The notes beneath the pieces are model-generated. The model had not been told where the DNA came from. It did no database searches and saw only the letters and a list, made by a program, of their open reading frames with translations. Position numbers and translations under genes: made by a program. From positions 1 to 22,295 of the IMG/VR virus record IMGVR_UViG_3300044949_000720: a stretch of DNA of 22,295 nt; one strand, written 5' to 3'. Shown one piece after another: positions 9,577 to 14,596 of the stretch; positions within the stretch are counted from its first letter, which is position 1; each line of letters begins with the position of its first letter. The DNA comes from a virus.

Positions 9577-9955
9577 TGGTAAATACATAAAAAAAGAAGG
9601 AAAGTTAGAATTTTTAACACTAGCAAGTGCTAAACAGTTTGAACTTTTTCTTTCTAACATGGCGGAAGGACAAATTGTAGAAGTATTTTATGAAGAGCAG
9701 CATGATGATGGTACACTGCCTCAACTAGCTAAAATACATGTGCTAATTAAGCAATTAGCCATGCATATAGGTGAGACAGTAGAGAATATGAAGTTGTTAA
9801 TTAAAGATAGAGCAGGATTGTGTATAGCAAGAGAAGTTTCTGGAAAAGAATACTTCTTAGCTAAAAGCTTTGCTGAATGCTCAAGAGAAGAACTATCACT
9901 AGCTATACAAGCAGCTATAGAAATAGGTGAAGAAGTAGGATTTATTTTGCATTAG
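9557..9955 (+). CDS. Hypothetical protein, possibly NinB-like recombination factor (132 aa)
   Basis: The first 45 residues form beta strands around GKYIKKEGKLEFLTL and IVEVFYEEQ. A helical part follows with LAKIHVLIKQLAMHIGETVE, then KLLIKDRAGLC, YFLAKSFAECSREELSLAIQ and an IGEEVGF end. The order of an N-terminal strand unit, a Q-x-x-x-I-H helix, a G-T-x-E-x-x-K segment and a final 'S-x-x-E-L-S-x-A-I-Q' helix is reminiscent of NinB-type recombination mediators, but the resemblance is weak and unverified. It overlaps the SF2 helicase by 20 bases, which suggests coupled translation and a shared process. Its 3' end overlaps the convergent minus-strand gene by 14 bases. Confidence 0.65.
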   Translation: MNLQHFNGKYIKKEGKLEFLTLASAKQFELFLSNMAEGQIVEVFYEEQHDDGTLPQLAKIHVLIKQLAMHIGETVENMKLLIKDRAGLCIAREVSGKEYFLAKSFAECSREELSLAIQAAIEIGEEVGFILH

Positions 9956-10226
9956 AAGAAAGACTATCTAAGTCTGTCTGATCAGCTAATCCTTTTTCTA
10001 CAGCAATTTTTTCCATATATTGAATCATATATGCTAAAAAAGCATAGTGCTCAACCCATTCGTCTTCAAAATCTCTTTTAACAATTTTTTCATAAGCTTC
10101 TTTAATATCTTCTTCAGTTTTATCTGCAATAAGAAATAATAGAAGTTTTTGAAAACTCACTAAAGTGTTGCCTCCCACTGTAATATCAAAAATAACATCG
10201 TTTTTTATTGTAGTGTAAGTAGACAT
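9942..10226 (-). CDS. Isolated minus-strand protein, unknown function (94 aa)
   Basis: Reads leftward from ATG 10226. The N-terminus MSTYTTIKNDVIFDITVGGN is strand-like, followed by helices (VSFQKLLLFLIADKTEEDIK, EAYEKIVKRDFEDEWVEHYAFLAYMIQYMEKIAVEKG). No membrane signal and no known motif. It is the only leftward gene in an otherwise rightward block (120-14547) and carries a good promoter of its own 18 bases upstream at 10244-10251. Its stop lies within the last codons of the convergent 9557-9955 gene. A compact, separately promoted gene against the operon direction is typical of small regulatory or early host-interaction proteins, but the sequence does not say which. Confidence 0.75.
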   Translation of the reverse strand: MSTYTTIKNDVIFDITVGGNTLVSFQKLLLFLIADKTEEDIKEAYEKIVKRDFEDEWVEHYAFLAYMIQYMEKIAVEKGLADQTDLDSLSSNAK

Positions 10227-10261: not shown

Positions 10262-10981
10262 ATGACAGAAACTATAGATATAGAAGATATTAAGAAAAAA
10301 CTTATAGAAAAACTAACTCCATCAGGATGGTCAAGAAAGCTAAGAGGGTTTGTAATGTCAAGTGACTTTGATAAGATCATAGAAGGACTAGTTAAAGAAA
10401 AAGAGAATGGTAAAAGATTTACTCCTCCTCTTAAATATGTATTTAAAGCATTTGAAGAATGTGCTGAGAAAGATCTTAAGGTGGTTATCATTGGTCAAGA
10501 TCCATATCCCCATTTTGGTGTTGCAGATGGAATAGCATTTTCTTGCGGACTAACAGAAAAAGCACAACCTAGTCTAAAGAATATATTTGATGCTATAGAT
10601 GCCACTGTATATGAAGGAGTACCTCGTAAAGAACATGATTTAGATTTGTCTAGATGGTCAAGACAAGGTGTGCTTCTTTTAAACACAGCTCTCACTACAC
10701 AAATAGACAAGGTAGGAACCCATTATGATATATGGAAAGACTTTATTATGTATACACTAGACATGTTAAGTCTTACAAATTCAGGATTAATATTTATACT
10801 ACTTGGTGCTAAAGCACAAGAGTTAGAATCAGTAATAACTCCTGCTCATTATGTTCTTAAAGCTAGTCATCCTGCTTCTGCAGCATATACTAAAACAACA
10901 TGGGATTGTAATGATGTATTTAATAAAGCTAACGAACTATTAGTTAAAAACAACGGTGCTGAGTATAAAATTCAATGGTAA
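10262..10981 (+). CDS. ung: Uracil-DNA glycosylase, family 1 (239 aa)
   Basis: Family 1 UDG motifs: IIGQDPYP at 76-83 with catalytic Asp80 and VADGIAFS after it, LLLNTALT (138-145) in the uracil pocket, and HPASAAY (203-209) corresponding to the His-Pro-Ser loop that enters the minor groove. The enzyme removes uracil from DNA as the first step of base excision repair. In a phage this keeps uracil out of the replicating genome, or helps degrade host DNA. Differences from bacterial Ung include Pro after the GQDPY motif in place of His and HPAS in place of HPSP; both variants occur in phage enzymes. Length is about normal. No forward promoter is obvious, and it starts directly beside the divergent promoter. 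Confidence 0.93.
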   Translation: MTETIDIEDIKKKLIEKLTPSGWSRKLRGFVMSSDFDKIIEGLVKEKENGKRFTPPLKYVFKAFEECAEKDLKVVIIGQDPYPHFGVADGIAFSCGLTEKAQPSLKNIFDAIDATVYEGVPRKEHDLDLSRWSRQGVLLLNTALTTQIDKVGTHYDIWKDFIMYTLDMLSLTNSGLIFILLGAKAQELESVITPAHYVLKASHPASAAYTKTTWDCNDVFNKANELLVKNNGAEYKIQW

Positions 10982-11005: not shown

Positions 11006-11329
11006 ATGGCAGTAAACAAAGTGGATCTTTATGTATCCCAAATTTTAGAAGATTTAAACAATGGTCTAACTTGGTTAAAACGTGATGACCTAGGATATGG
11101 AAGCATTCAAGAGAAGTACAATGCTAAAGACCAACAAATTGCAATGGTCAGAAAGGATCCTGCTCTTAAAGAAGCTGAAACTAATGTAACAGTATTTAAT
11201 GTTATTGATGATACAATAGACACTAAACAAGCTGTAACCACTAAACAAGAACCTGTAAAAGAAACTGTTTCTAATCAAGATGCGTTAATTGACAAAGTGG
11301 ATGAATTAGCAACATTTATGAATCTATAA
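11006..11329 (+). CDS. Hypothetical protein before the MoxR ATPase (107 aa)
   Basis: The N-terminal part, MAVNKVDLYVSQILEDLNNG, then GLTWLKRDDLGYGSIQ, is helical. The middle (about 60-90) is Thr/Val/Glu/Lys-rich and likely disordered, and the end has a helix QDALIDKVDELATFMNL. No family recognised. It starts 24 bases after the UDG stop with an A-rich leader and is followed one base after its stop by the MoxR-type ATPase. Such tight linkage makes it a candidate partner or adaptor of the ATPase/VWA pair, though nothing in its own sequence proves this. Confidence 0.65.
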   Translation: MAVNKVDLYVSQILEDLNNGLTWLKRDDLGYGSIQEKYNAKDQQIAMVRKDPALKEAETNVTVFNVIDDTIDTKQAVTTKQEPVKETVSNQDALIDKVDELATFMNL

Positions 11330-11330
11330 T

Positions 11331-12953
11331 ATGAGTAGACAAAATAGACCTAGTCCATCTATAAGTGCAACTACTCAAGCGGTTGGAACAGTTATGACAG
11401 GTAATGATGGTAGAAATTGGTATGTAGCACAAAATAGTAATGGAGTCCAAAGATGGGTTCAAATAGGAACTACTTCAACATCTATACCTATTTCAAAATC
11501 AACATTACAGAGTATGAATAGTTCATCAACTACAGTTAATTCAGAAAATTTTCCTAAGTTTAAAGTGGGAGATAAAGTAAAGATAACACATTCAGGAGCG
11601 GGTTGTGGTAAAGAAGATTTAGGAAATATAGTTGAAATAACAGAAGTTGGTTGGTATGGTGGTTCGTTATTTGGCTATAAAATTAATCCTGCGTATGGTA
11701 ACACTAAACATGGATTTTTTAATGGATATATAGCTGAGAATTCCTTTGAGTTAGCAGAAGAAAATAAAATAGAAAAACAAACTTTAACAAAAGAACAATT
11801 AAACAACGCTTATAAAATGGCAAAAGCAAATAAAAAAATAATTACAAAAAGAACTGCACAAGAAGTTCGTAAAATTGAAACATCTTTGATTAACAAAGAG
11901 GAAGTATTTAAAATGCTAGCTCTAGCAGAAGCAACTGGTTTACCCTGCTTATTAATAGGTGAGCCAGGTGTAGCAAAGACCAAAACAGTTATAGAATACG
12001 CCAAAGCATGGTTAAATAAAGATGGTAATATGACTGCAGAGGATTTTGCTAATAAAATCTATATTCTAGAAACTGATGAAGGCACTAAAGCATCAGAAAT
12101 TAAGGGTATGCCAGATTTATCTGTATTGTTTACAGAAAACAAGTATCAACTTAACGCACCTGTTACAGAAGCTGAGATTGTTATTATTAACGAGGTAGAC
12201 AAAGCTAGCTCAGCAATTCGCAATGCTATGTTGGGCGTAATGAATGAGAAATTTCTGTTTAACGGTAAGCATAAAACTCCTTGTAAATGGAAGTTATTTG
12301 TAGCAACATGTAATGAGATTCCTAAAGAAGAAAAAGATTCTCCTTTCTGGGATAGATTTATGCTTAAAATGAAAGTAAACAGAGTGAGTGCAGGTGAACT
12401 TGTAAAATATTACCAAAAAGGTGCTCGTAACTATCGTGAGAAGTTTAGTGTTGGTATTCCTTCAGTTGCAGAAATAGAAAGTTTTGAAGTTCCTACATCT
12501 AAACTAGAAAAATACTTAGAAGTAGGTTATAATTCTAGTTCAGATCGTACATTAACATTTGTACCAAAGCTTACTAAAGCAGTGTCTTATATTTGGGATG
12601 TATCTATTGATAAAGCTTTAGTAAAGACAGCACAAATTATGATTGATCAAAAAGCTGGATCAGAACTTCAAAACAAACTAATGTCTTCTGAAATTAAAGC
12701 TGTAATGTCTAAGGTAGAAATGCTACAAAGCTTTACAACTAATGAACAGTTGGAATTAGCTATTGCTGATATAGAAAGTCTTATTAACACTTATGTTACT
12801 CGTAATATCATGGATGAAACACAAGTAGAAGAGATAGAACTTTCTATGCAGTATATTCTTTCTACACATCCTGCTCGTAAAGATATGATAGAAGCTGATT
12901 TAGAAGAAACTGTAAGTCAACTAAACGACACAGCTAAAATGGAAAGTATGTAA
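11331..12953 (+). CDS. MoxR-type AAA+ ATPase with extra N-terminal domains (540 aa)
   Basis: The C-terminal two thirds is a MoxR-class AAA+ module: Walker A GEPGVAKT (210-217), Walker B IVIINEVDKA (283-292, Asn in place of the usual first Asp), sensor 1 VATCNE (324-329) and the DRF segment (341-343). The N-terminal part is unusual. Residues about 19-45 (GTVMTGNDGRNWYVAQNSNG, then VQRWV) match a short module that I recall from large viruses. Residues 75-140 (FPKFKVGDKVKITHSGAG and the next 50) look like an SH3-like barrel. MoxR ATPases remodel protein complexes together with a VWA-domain partner; that partner is 13042-14547. The target is unknown. The gene follows 11006-11329 by one base. Confidence 0.88.
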   Translation: MSRQNRPSPSISATTQAVGTVMTGNDGRNWYVAQNSNGVQRWVQIGTTSTSIPISKSTLQSMNSSSTTVNSENFPKFKVGDKVKITHSGAGCGKEDLGNIVEITEVGWYGGSLFGYKINPAYGNTKHGFFNGYIAENSFELAEENKIEKQTLTKEQLNNAYKMAKANKKIITKRTAQEVRKIETSLINKEEVFKMLALAEATGLPCLLIGEPGVAKTKTVIEYAKAWLNKDGNMTAEDFANKIYILETDEGTKASEIKGMPDLSVLFTENKYQLNAPVTEAEIVIINEVDKASSAIRNAMLGVMNEKFLFNGKHKTPCKWKLFVATCNEIPKEEKDSPFWDRFMLKMKVNRVSAGELVKYYQKGARNYREKFSVGIPSVAEIESFEVPTSKLEKYLEVGYNSSSDRTLTFVPKLTKAVSYIWDVSIDKALVKTAQIMIDQKAGSELQNKLMSSEIKAVMSKVEMLQSFTTNEQLELAIADIESLINTYVTRNIMDETQVEEIELSMQYILSTHPARKDMIEADLEETVSQLNDTAKMESM

Positions 12954-12974
12954 GAAGCTGTTAATAATTCAAAA

Positions 12975-13028
12975 TTTCTGTTAATAGATATAGTGTAGGG
13001 TGTAATGCCCTACACTATATTACAGAAA
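12975..13028 (+). repeat. Perfect 13-bp inverted repeat between the ATPase and VWA genes
   Basis: Inner stem ATATAGTGTAGGG (12988-13000) / CCCTACACTATAT (13008-13020) with loop TGTAATG. An outer pair TTTCTGT (12975-12981) / ACAGAAA (13022-13028) extends it. No T-run follows, so it is not an ordinary terminator. It could be an RNA processing or stabilising hairpin, or a protein-binding operator. Confidence 0.8.
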
Positions 13029-13041
13029 CTAAATTAAATTT

Positions 13042-14547
13042 ATGTCAAAGAAACGCCAGTATAAAAATCCTTACACTATACTTGAAAAAGTTAAAAAAGG
13101 TGAAATAGCAACTCATTATAGAAATGAAGAAGGAGGACTATTTGGTAAATTAAATTTTTATAAAAAGCCAGATTTAGTTAAACCCACGCTTCACTATATA
13201 GATGAGATTAGACTTAAAGAAATGATGCAAGATTATGTTTCATCAGCTTCAGGAAATAAAAAAATAATTGAAACTCTTCAAAGCCTTCCTATAGATGTTA
13301 TTAATAATAAAAAAGTTGATGCTTCCAAATTTACTAAAAGTGTACGCGAAATAAATGAAACTTTTCCTAAACACATATTATATGACATCTTTAAGATGTA
13401 CTATAATAGAATGGATAAATTAGAATTTTCAGAAAGAACTGATAAAAACTTTACTAAATATAAGTTTTTAGAAAAAGCTAACAATCCTGTAGGTAAAATT
13501 ATGAGTGAAAACAGTCATTTAAAATCATCAATATTTGCTAGAAATACACTTATGTATTTTCTTATGCAATTAGTAAAACTAGAATATTTAGATCCAAATG
13601 CTTCCAATGATTTAAAAAGTTCTTTAAAGGGTGATTCTAGTGAATTTGATCAAGATGGTCTTGAGAAATTATTAAACAAAATGTTTGGTGATTCTAAAGA
13701 TCAGTATGAAAAAGAAATGCAAGAAGCACAAGATATTTGTAAAAACATAGATGATAATATAGATGATGAAATACAAGAGCAGATATATAAAAATCCCGAT
13801 AAGTCAAGTTCTTTAAATGCAGGAAAAATGGATAGTGATTTTATTAAAAAACTATCAAGTCAGCTAGAAAATATTAAACTTTCTATGAACTCACTTAAAA
13901 ATAGTTTAAAGAAAATACTTGATAAAAGTATAAGCTATTTTTCTGCAAAGAGTATTCCTATATTTGAAGATTTGTTTAATGCACAAGATATATCAGGATT
14001 AAATGAATATGAACTTTTACATCCAAAACTTAGGAAAATATTTGCTGAAGATGTGCAAGTAAAAGAAAATAAGTATTTTGGAAAAATAAATGTATACATA
14101 GATGTGTCAGGATCAATGGATAGTAGTTGTGGTAGTCTTAATCAAAATGGTGACAATGTAAGTAGACTTGACTTTGCTAAATCTATGGTTATGAAATTAA
14201 AAGAAATGAATATTCTAAATGAAATTTATCCTTTTAATACAAAAGTTAAAACAAATCTTAAGACTGATTCTATTAGTATTGCTACATTAGGTTCAGATGG
14301 AGGTACTCATATCAATTCAGCTGTAGAACATATAGTGCGTAGTAATCAAAATGCAATTATTATAACAGATGCTGAAGACTCTTGTAATATTTATAATGAA
14401 AAAGTTTTCTTTATAGGTCTAAAAGGATCCAAGTTTTCCCATTTTAACAAAGAAACATTAAAAAAATATTCTGAAGCTCAGCAAATTATTATATTTGATG
14501 GTCAAAAGATATTTAATGTTGATGAAAAAGGAGCTTTAAAAAAATAG
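13042..14547 (+). CDS. VWA-domain protein, partner of MoxR-type ATPase (501 aa)
   Basis: The C-terminal 150 residues form a von Willebrand A domain with a full metal-ion adhesion site: DVSGSM (354-359), the Thr of DGGTHIN (422) and Asp443 in IITDAED. The first 345 residues are mostly helical and charged, with an acidic stretch around 225-250 (EMQEAQDICKNIDDNIDDEI) and no recognisable motif. MoxR ATPases are commonly paired with VWA proteins of the CoxE/ViaA/YehP kind, where the metal site binds the ATPase or its target. The pairing here is direct, with a hairpin between the two genes. It ends just before a bidirectional terminator at the boundary with the leftward lysis genes. Confidence 0.88.
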   Translation: MSKKRQYKNPYTILEKVKKGEIATHYRNEEGGLFGKLNFYKKPDLVKPTLHYIDEIRLKEMMQDYVSSASGNKKIIETLQSLPIDVINNKKVDASKFTKSVREINETFPKHILYDIFKMYYNRMDKLEFSERTDKNFTKYKFLEKANNPVGKIMSENSHLKSSIFARNTLMYFLMQLVKLEYLDPNASNDLKSSLKGDSSEFDQDGLEKLLNKMFGDSKDQYEKEMQEAQDICKNIDDNIDDEIQEQIYKNPDKSSSLNAGKMDSDFIKKLSSQLENIKLSMNSLKNSLKKILDKSISYFSAKSIPIFEDLFNAQDISGLNEYELLHPKLRKIFAEDVQVKENKYFGKINVYIDVSGSMDSSCGSLNQNGDNVSRLDFAKSMVMKLKEMNILNEIYPFNTKVKTNLKTDSISIATLGSDGGTHINSAVEHIVRSNQNAIIITDAEDSCNIYNEKVFFIGLKGSKFSHFNKETLKKYSEAQQIIIFDGQKIFNVDEKGALKK

Positions 14548-14564: not shown

Positions 14565-14596
14565 AAAAAAGACCGGTGTTATGCCGGTCTTTTTTT
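14565..14596. terminator. Bidirectional terminator
   Basis: The stem AAAAAAGACCGG / CCGGTCTTTTTT with loop TGTTATG has an A-run before and a T-run after, so it can end transcripts from both directions: the VWA gene on the plus strand and the lysis operon on the minus strand. Confidence 0.9.

Follow-up and report, generated by a model that had tools for sequence, protein, structure and literature searches.

MoxR-type AAA+ ATPases paired with VWA proteins are widespread, and the known pairs are chaperones acting on specific complexes, as described for jumbo phages and ATV (PMC7824862) and for the ternary conflict systems (PMC7159879). Their targets are mostly unknown, and exchangeable heads on a constant motor would offer a route to them. 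Two further members of the broad AAA+ group are instructive in that a single gene serves for two products. Internal initiation in Escherichia coli McrB favours McrBS, a form without the recognition domain, and McrB relatives swap that domain (PMC12707154); in Mg-chelatase, two subunits arise by frameshifting from chlD, which is a MoxR-like AAA+ gene (PMC9227772). The present work concerns a cassette of three plus-strand genes in the 22,295-bp virus record IMGVR_UViG_3300044949_000720 of IMG/VR, analysed over its full length and hereafter termed the window. The genes encode a 107-residue protein, a 540-residue MoxR-clade ATPase and a 501-residue VWA protein (Table 1). The explanation that we favour, and hold to be fairly probable, is that the cassette encodes a phage MoxR-VWA chaperone or remodelling complex with swappable heads, two isoforms of the ATPase and a small adaptor or substrate. 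The ATPase family is known; the novelty for phages appears to lie in the long and short design with its swapping heads.

The cassette and the N-terminal modules of its ATPase

The identity of the motor is supported by several lines of comparison. The ATPase matches the Pfam families bpMoxR (PF20030, 4e-24) and AAA_5 (6e-11), the best PDB folds for its predicted model are RavA (top), a MoxR and BchI, and its best solved relative by sequence is RavA (2e-11). In addition to the Walker motifs, the protein contains sensor 1 (N328), an Arg finger (R342) and sensor 2 (R406), and in an alignment of 46 sequences these three residues, K216/T217 and N287/E288 are all invariant. The family, the motif set and the fold are thus those of a MoxR-type AAA+ protein; only the canonical Asp-Glu of Walker B is missing. 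Asn in place of the first Asp, already pointed out in a sequence-only reading of this DNA, recurs as Asn-Glu in every relative (81/81), whereas Asp-Glu is found in 81 of 83 RavA-type matches and in the distant ATV, SMV1 and fecal homologues. Judged from these alignments, the Asn characterises the whole lineage and is not damage, and its fixation while all other motifs are kept argues for a functional, perhaps slower, ATPase.

The VWA protein has no Pfam match, yet its label, also taken from the sequence-only reading, proved right. The residues of its metal ion-dependent adhesion site (MIDAS), namely D354, S356, S358, T422 and D443, are invariant across 45 VWA sequences, and profile comparison gave CoxE-type VWA at 93.6% (E 2e-7) against 22% for ViaA. 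Foldseek matched many VWA domains. A Ro60/TROVE identity, raised by the top Foldseek match (9kop, 4e-4), was rejected when comparison with a profile of 17 TROVE proteins gave only 1.8%. By these profiles the protein is CoxE-like and not Ro60. Its profile found one weak partial match in 198 Bacteroidota genomes, and a genome scan did not find close cellular relatives of the ATPase; the phage record collection held only distant matches to the ATPase core and none to the VWA protein. Coordinates, Pfam, fold, MIDAS and CoxE profile therefore agree with the proposed MoxR-VWA pair, preceded by a 107-residue gene whose stop lies one base before the ATPase start.

The partner genes are conserved together. 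The cassette was recovered in order from about 80 IMG/VR contigs, and the same set is returned whether the query is the 107-residue protein, the VWA protein or the ATPase; because the order is kept across these contigs from three independent queries, the arrangement is not due to chance. Of 80 loci, 77 have the gene for the 107-residue protein beside the ATPase gene, and the remaining 3 end just downstream of the former. A gene for uracil-DNA glycosylase (UDG) lies just upstream of the cassette in nearly all relatives with enough contig, and the order UDG, 107-residue protein, ATPase, VWA is kept in all sufficiently long contigs, save for a few that have an additional gap after UDG.

In the 107-residue protein a variable linker joins a conserved N-terminal domain (about 70 residues) to a C-terminal tail that is also conserved. 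Among 31 relatives the Phe of the tail is invariant and its Leu nearly so, while the linker varies in length, and the FANL-type ending is essentially private to this family among 2263 distinct open reading frames (ORFs) scanned. This layout suggests a tethered docking peptide. Searches of Pfam, PHROG and PADLOC and a profile search gave no above-threshold family or defence match and no fold for the protein. A match to the phi29 capsid protein (MCP) was set aside, being far below the cut-off and unsupported by profile search. A small minus-strand gene near one cassette (L067:2536-2841) ends in QFLNL, resembling this tail.

Two small N-terminal domains, termed modules A and B, precede the ATPase core. 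They are predicted as separate domains with high confidence (pLDDT, the predicted local distance difference test, about 92-95), and the linkers between them are of low confidence. Module A has the consensus RPSPT.SAT...GNDG..W...GV.RW, for which neither Pfam nor PHROG holds a family, and a literature search with its motif strings found no match; module B matches PHROG 9779, of unknown function (4e-5). Among 48 non-redundant relatives, 17 carry A only, 12 carry A and B, 5 carry B only, 3 have other extensions and 11 have none, the classes being set by motif and approximate, and the three "other" rows including truncated or degenerate cases. The five architecture classes require at least 21 changes on the tree of the ATPase core. 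The sequence-only reading had described two added N-terminal modules, but mentioned neither their repeated exchange nor the internal start and the C-terminal tail of the 107-residue protein. Such modules are present in most relatives and fold with high predicted confidence, but they are not a fixed feature, as at least 11 of the 48 relatives are without them and switching is frequent.

Module A is not confined to this ATPase. It occurs on a CbbQ/NorQ-type AAA+ protein of other phages, with a VWA gene two genes downstream (L137, L142), at the C-terminus of phage proteins of about 970-1040 residues which adjoin large phage proteins (L106, L107, L112, L113), on a protein of 167 residues (L111), and at the end both of L150 and of a short ORF in the 635-kb phage LR745206 (L094:5932-6120). 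It was met only in viral contigs and phage records, and was found neither in 296 Bacteroidota genomes (a search without positive control) nor in the plasmids searched. The description of the modules as virus-type thus holds for module A within the sets searched. Carried by at least five kinds of protein and so far uncatalogued, this small phage domain merits a family entry. The second phage AAA+ family, of the CbbQ/NorQ type (L137, L142, L151-L177), has hypervariable N-termini, some of them with module A. A protein of this type in the crAss-like gut phage cr118_1 (L183:4554-6533), annotated "porphyrin biosynthesis", has an N-terminal extension, and the gene that follows it might, by eye, encode a degenerate VWA protein.

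The best named matches of the UDG come from crAss-like phages and from an Acinetobacter phage record, and the replication genes of the window follow the order Sak4, small gene, primase, as in Cellulophaga phage phi14:2. On these two grounds the source genome is probably a crAss-like phage (Crassvirales); genes for a crAss-like major capsid protein, portal and terminase are absent from the window, and among the virion-structure PHROG matches of one relative (G008) these three were not identified. A literature search pairing crAss-like phages with MoxR or von Willebrand found nothing, and the cassette is recurrent in many large uncultured environmental genomes of this abundant order. Its surroundings, after UDG, are replication and repair genes outside the structural block, and in one relative with matches to virion-structure PHROGs (G008) that block is on the other strand.

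The location of the cassette and the exchange of its heads bear on what the complex may act upon. One alternative is a virion-assembly chaperone, which would mature tail or other structural proteins, as has been proposed for ATV and group 2.2 jumbo phages (PMC7824862). The nearest annotated viral homologues do include the MoxR ATPases of ATV and SMV1, the latter with an adjoining VWA gene, and module A also ends the proteins of about 1000 residues that stand beside large phage proteins. The position in a replication operon nevertheless does not specifically favour a virion role and, without being decisive, counts against it, as does a third gene with no structural-protein match in Pfam or PHROG and only the rejected phi29 MCP match. 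We consider this reading unlikely as a sole account. The same grade is given to host takeover or counter-defence, in which the heads would keep pace with host targets or defence proteins as these change, for disassembly or inactivation by the ring. Frequent exchange of heads on a constant motor is the pattern expected under conflict, the operon position is that of early or replication genes, and conflict modules of the MoxR-VWA ternary type are widespread (PMC7159879); against this, PADLOC gave no match, and head exchange could equally track changes of a viral partner. Virion assembly and host takeover are about equally possible, and both fit under the favoured explanation of a remodelling complex with swappable heads. 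An anti-phage defence model for the cassette was also rejected, in view of the PADLOC result.

A predicted internal start in the ATPase gene

The second element of the favoured explanation, a short isoform, comes from comparison of relatives with and without the N-terminal extension. Short relatives start with M-[SA]-K-x-K-[ST]-I-T-K, and the N-extended genes keep an in-frame ATG at exactly the same place (36 of 37 non-redundant genes), which makes a predicted internal start where the AAA+ core begins, as in McrB. The 18 nucleotides before this ATG contain 3.1% G and have A at -3 in 92% of cases; ahead of the 742 other in-frame ATGs, G makes up 24.1% (P 9e-24). The leader is no different in this respect from those of the true starts of the 107-residue, VWA and UDG genes (P 0.44). 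If the amino acid sequence is kept unchanged, the six codons before the ATG hold 20 G where 48.9 +/- 4.8 would be expected, and the signal survives restriction to relatives below 80% core identity (ATG in 7 of 7, P 9e-5). M-[AS]-K is present at 30 of the 36 internal sites, compared to 59 of the 742 other Met. The pattern of substitution is also distinctive: in the last ten leader codons third positions differ least (0.24 vs 0.31 and 0.35), and in module A the reverse is seen, third positions differing most (0.44 vs 0.30 and 0.29), so that module A is coding. The leader is thus, on this comparison, constrained as nucleotide sequence and module A as protein. Taken from these patterns, the ATPase gene probably also yields a headless short form of 378 residues. 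In the second AAA+ family with module A (L151-L177) a dual start was considered and rejected, since its leader is G-rich and only some members retain the Met.

Several observations weigh against an internal start. In one clade (L007, L008, L015) the internal ATG is missing, and an in-frame GTG stands behind a 21-nucleotide G-free leader. Depletion of G extends, more weakly, to codons -18 to -9 (131 vs 156.9 expected), so part of it is a general bias of the linker. The relatives share ancestry, and the P values therefore overstate their independence. If the modules were inserted recently, the leader could be inherited from a former non-coding one. These points lead to the alternative of a plain fusion, in which the long protein is the sole product, and the Met and its leader survive from an ancestral short gene before which modules were inserted, in combination with a biased low-complexity linker. 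It would account for the start shared with the short relatives, for a linker that is G-poor beyond the start region and for the leftover Met of the second AAA+ family, which has no start-like leader before it, and the frequent gain and loss of modules means that many insertions may be recent. Yet Met and leader persist in a clade of eight relatives that are all N-extended, seven of them with ATG; synonymous choice and third-position constraint act at the nucleotide level; M-[AS]-K is kept; and the context equals that of true starts. A plain fusion is for these reasons rather improbable. Least credible of all is a metal-insertion (metabolic) pair of the CobS/CobT kind, to which BchI among the top folds and the gut crAss-like phages with a CbbQ/NorQ-type protein annotated "porphyrin biosynthesis" might point, for RavA outscores BchI, neither a CobN-like nor a porphyrin gene is present in the window, the protein of the gut phages is from another AAA+ family, and Walker B and the head domains differ.

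Table 1. Features of the cassette and its surroundings; positions refer to the window.
Feature	Position	Strand	Basis
UDG gene, upstream neighbour of the cassette, outside the machine	10262..10981	+	Pfam UDG 4e-12
107-aa protein	11006..11329	+	Alignment of 31 relatives
C-terminal tail TFMNL of the 107-aa protein (consensus A-F-A-N-L-COOH)	11312..11326	+	
MoxR-clade AAA+ ATPase, long form, 540 aa, 60.3 kDa	11331..12953	+	Pfam, predicted fold, motifs
Module A, residues 6-45, RPSPSISATTQAVGTVMTGNDGRNWYVAQNSNGVQRWVQI, small beta domain	11346..11465	+	pLDDT 92-93
Module B, residues 75-144, small beta-rich SH3/KOW-like domain	11553..11762	+	pLDDT about 95
Disordered linker, doubling as G-poor leader of the internal start	11763..11816	+	pLDDT below 50
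Predicted short isoform, ATPase core only, 378 aa, 42.7 kDa	11817..12953	+	Internal ATG (Met163), start-like context
Walker A, GEPGVAKT	11958..11981	+	Motif
Walker B, IINEVDK, N287 replacing Asp	12183..12203	+	N-E in 81/81 relatives
VWA partner, 501 aa, with a CoxE-like VWA domain at the C-terminus behind a helical N-terminal part	13042..14547	+	
MIDAS DxSxS (DVSGS, residues 354-358); T422 and D443 complete the site	14101..14115	+	Invariant, 45 sequences
Intrinsic-terminator-like hairpin after the cassette, before a convergent amidase gene	14565..14595	+	Pattern scan only

Other elements of the region were less distinctive. The spacer between the ATPase and VWA genes holds a strong RNA hairpin (12975-13028, -27.5 kcal/mol), and a strong hairpin is found there in 43 of 47 relatives with unrelated spacer sequences. 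It was rejected as a specific control element, since 51% of other co-directional spacers also have one. The terminator-like hairpin of Table 1 was the only one found, compared to 1.3 expected in shuffled sequences, and sigma-70 promoters in the region were fewer than in shuffles. A 94-residue ORF on the minus strand (9942-10226) lies between genes of the plus-strand operon.

Proposed mechanism and comparison with known systems

The favoured mechanism for the cassette can be outlined in four steps of decreasing support. Its basis, shown by sequence and fold, is a RavA/MoxR/BchI-clade ring ATPase that retains every catalytic motif, co-encoded with a CoxE-like VWA protein, whose metal-binding site is complete, and with the 107-residue protein. 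The ATPase gene would then, as is strongly indicated, give both a long form with modules and a headless form from Met163, the latter setting the number of heads per ring. The modules may act as recognition heads which direct the ring to its target; on a constant motor, they would be swapped from phage to phage when the targets change. More speculatively, the VWA protein might capture a peptide through its metal site, the 107-residue protein with its FANL tail might be an adaptor, or a substrate passed to the ring, and ATP hydrolysis might remodel the bound complex. In a bolder version, put forward tentatively, phages of this lineage would use the internal start to assemble mixed AAA+ rings out of a single gene. 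Virus-specific heads would be swapped independently of an unchanging motor and would also retarget a second, unrelated phage AAA+ family, and the 107-residue protein would feed substrates through its FANL tail; together these would form a phage-borne MoxR-VWA counterpart of McrB.

Among described systems, RavA-ViaA of E. coli resembles the cassette in the fold of its motor and in the co-encoding of ATPase and VWA partner. The cassette differs in its Asn-Glu Walker B, its N-terminal modules, its third gene for a 107-residue protein and a VWA protein nearer to CoxE than to ViaA. Pairs of the CoxD-CoxE type have the CoxE-like VWA domain in common with it by profile comparison, yet the shared part covers about 90 VWA columns, the helical N-terminus of the cassette protein is unmatched, and the window has no CO-dehydrogenase-type genes. 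ATV, SMV1 and the group 2.2 jumbo phages also encode a MoxR ATPase, accompanied in SMV1 and the jumbo phages by a VWA protein (PMC7824862). Identity with these proteins is 25-29% and limited to the core, their Walker B is Asp-Glu, they are without module A, module B or a 107-residue gene, and the VWA protein of the jumbo phages has a peptidase domain, which was not seen in that of the cassette.

The MoxR-VWA ternary conflict systems, from which the Pfam name bpMoxR originates, share the PF20030 ATPase domain and the number of three genes. The cassette, however, is phage-borne, contains no effector domains and has no VMAP, iSTAND or beta-propeller third component. The likeness to Mg-chelatase chlD, which belongs to a metal chelatase, is confined to two products from one gene, by frameshift there and by predicted internal initiation here.

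The closest working model is McrB of E. coli, of the same broad AAA+ group, with its variable N-terminal recognition domain, conserved AAA+ core and internal start; by analogy this is a likeness of operation and not of family membership. The relatives of the cassette have no neighbouring McrC nuclease, its place being taken by the VWA partner, and the isoforms of the cassette are predicted ones. If true, a headless isoform built into the gene would carry the McrB principle, a variable head together with a short regulatory isoform, over to a VWA-coupled ATPase.

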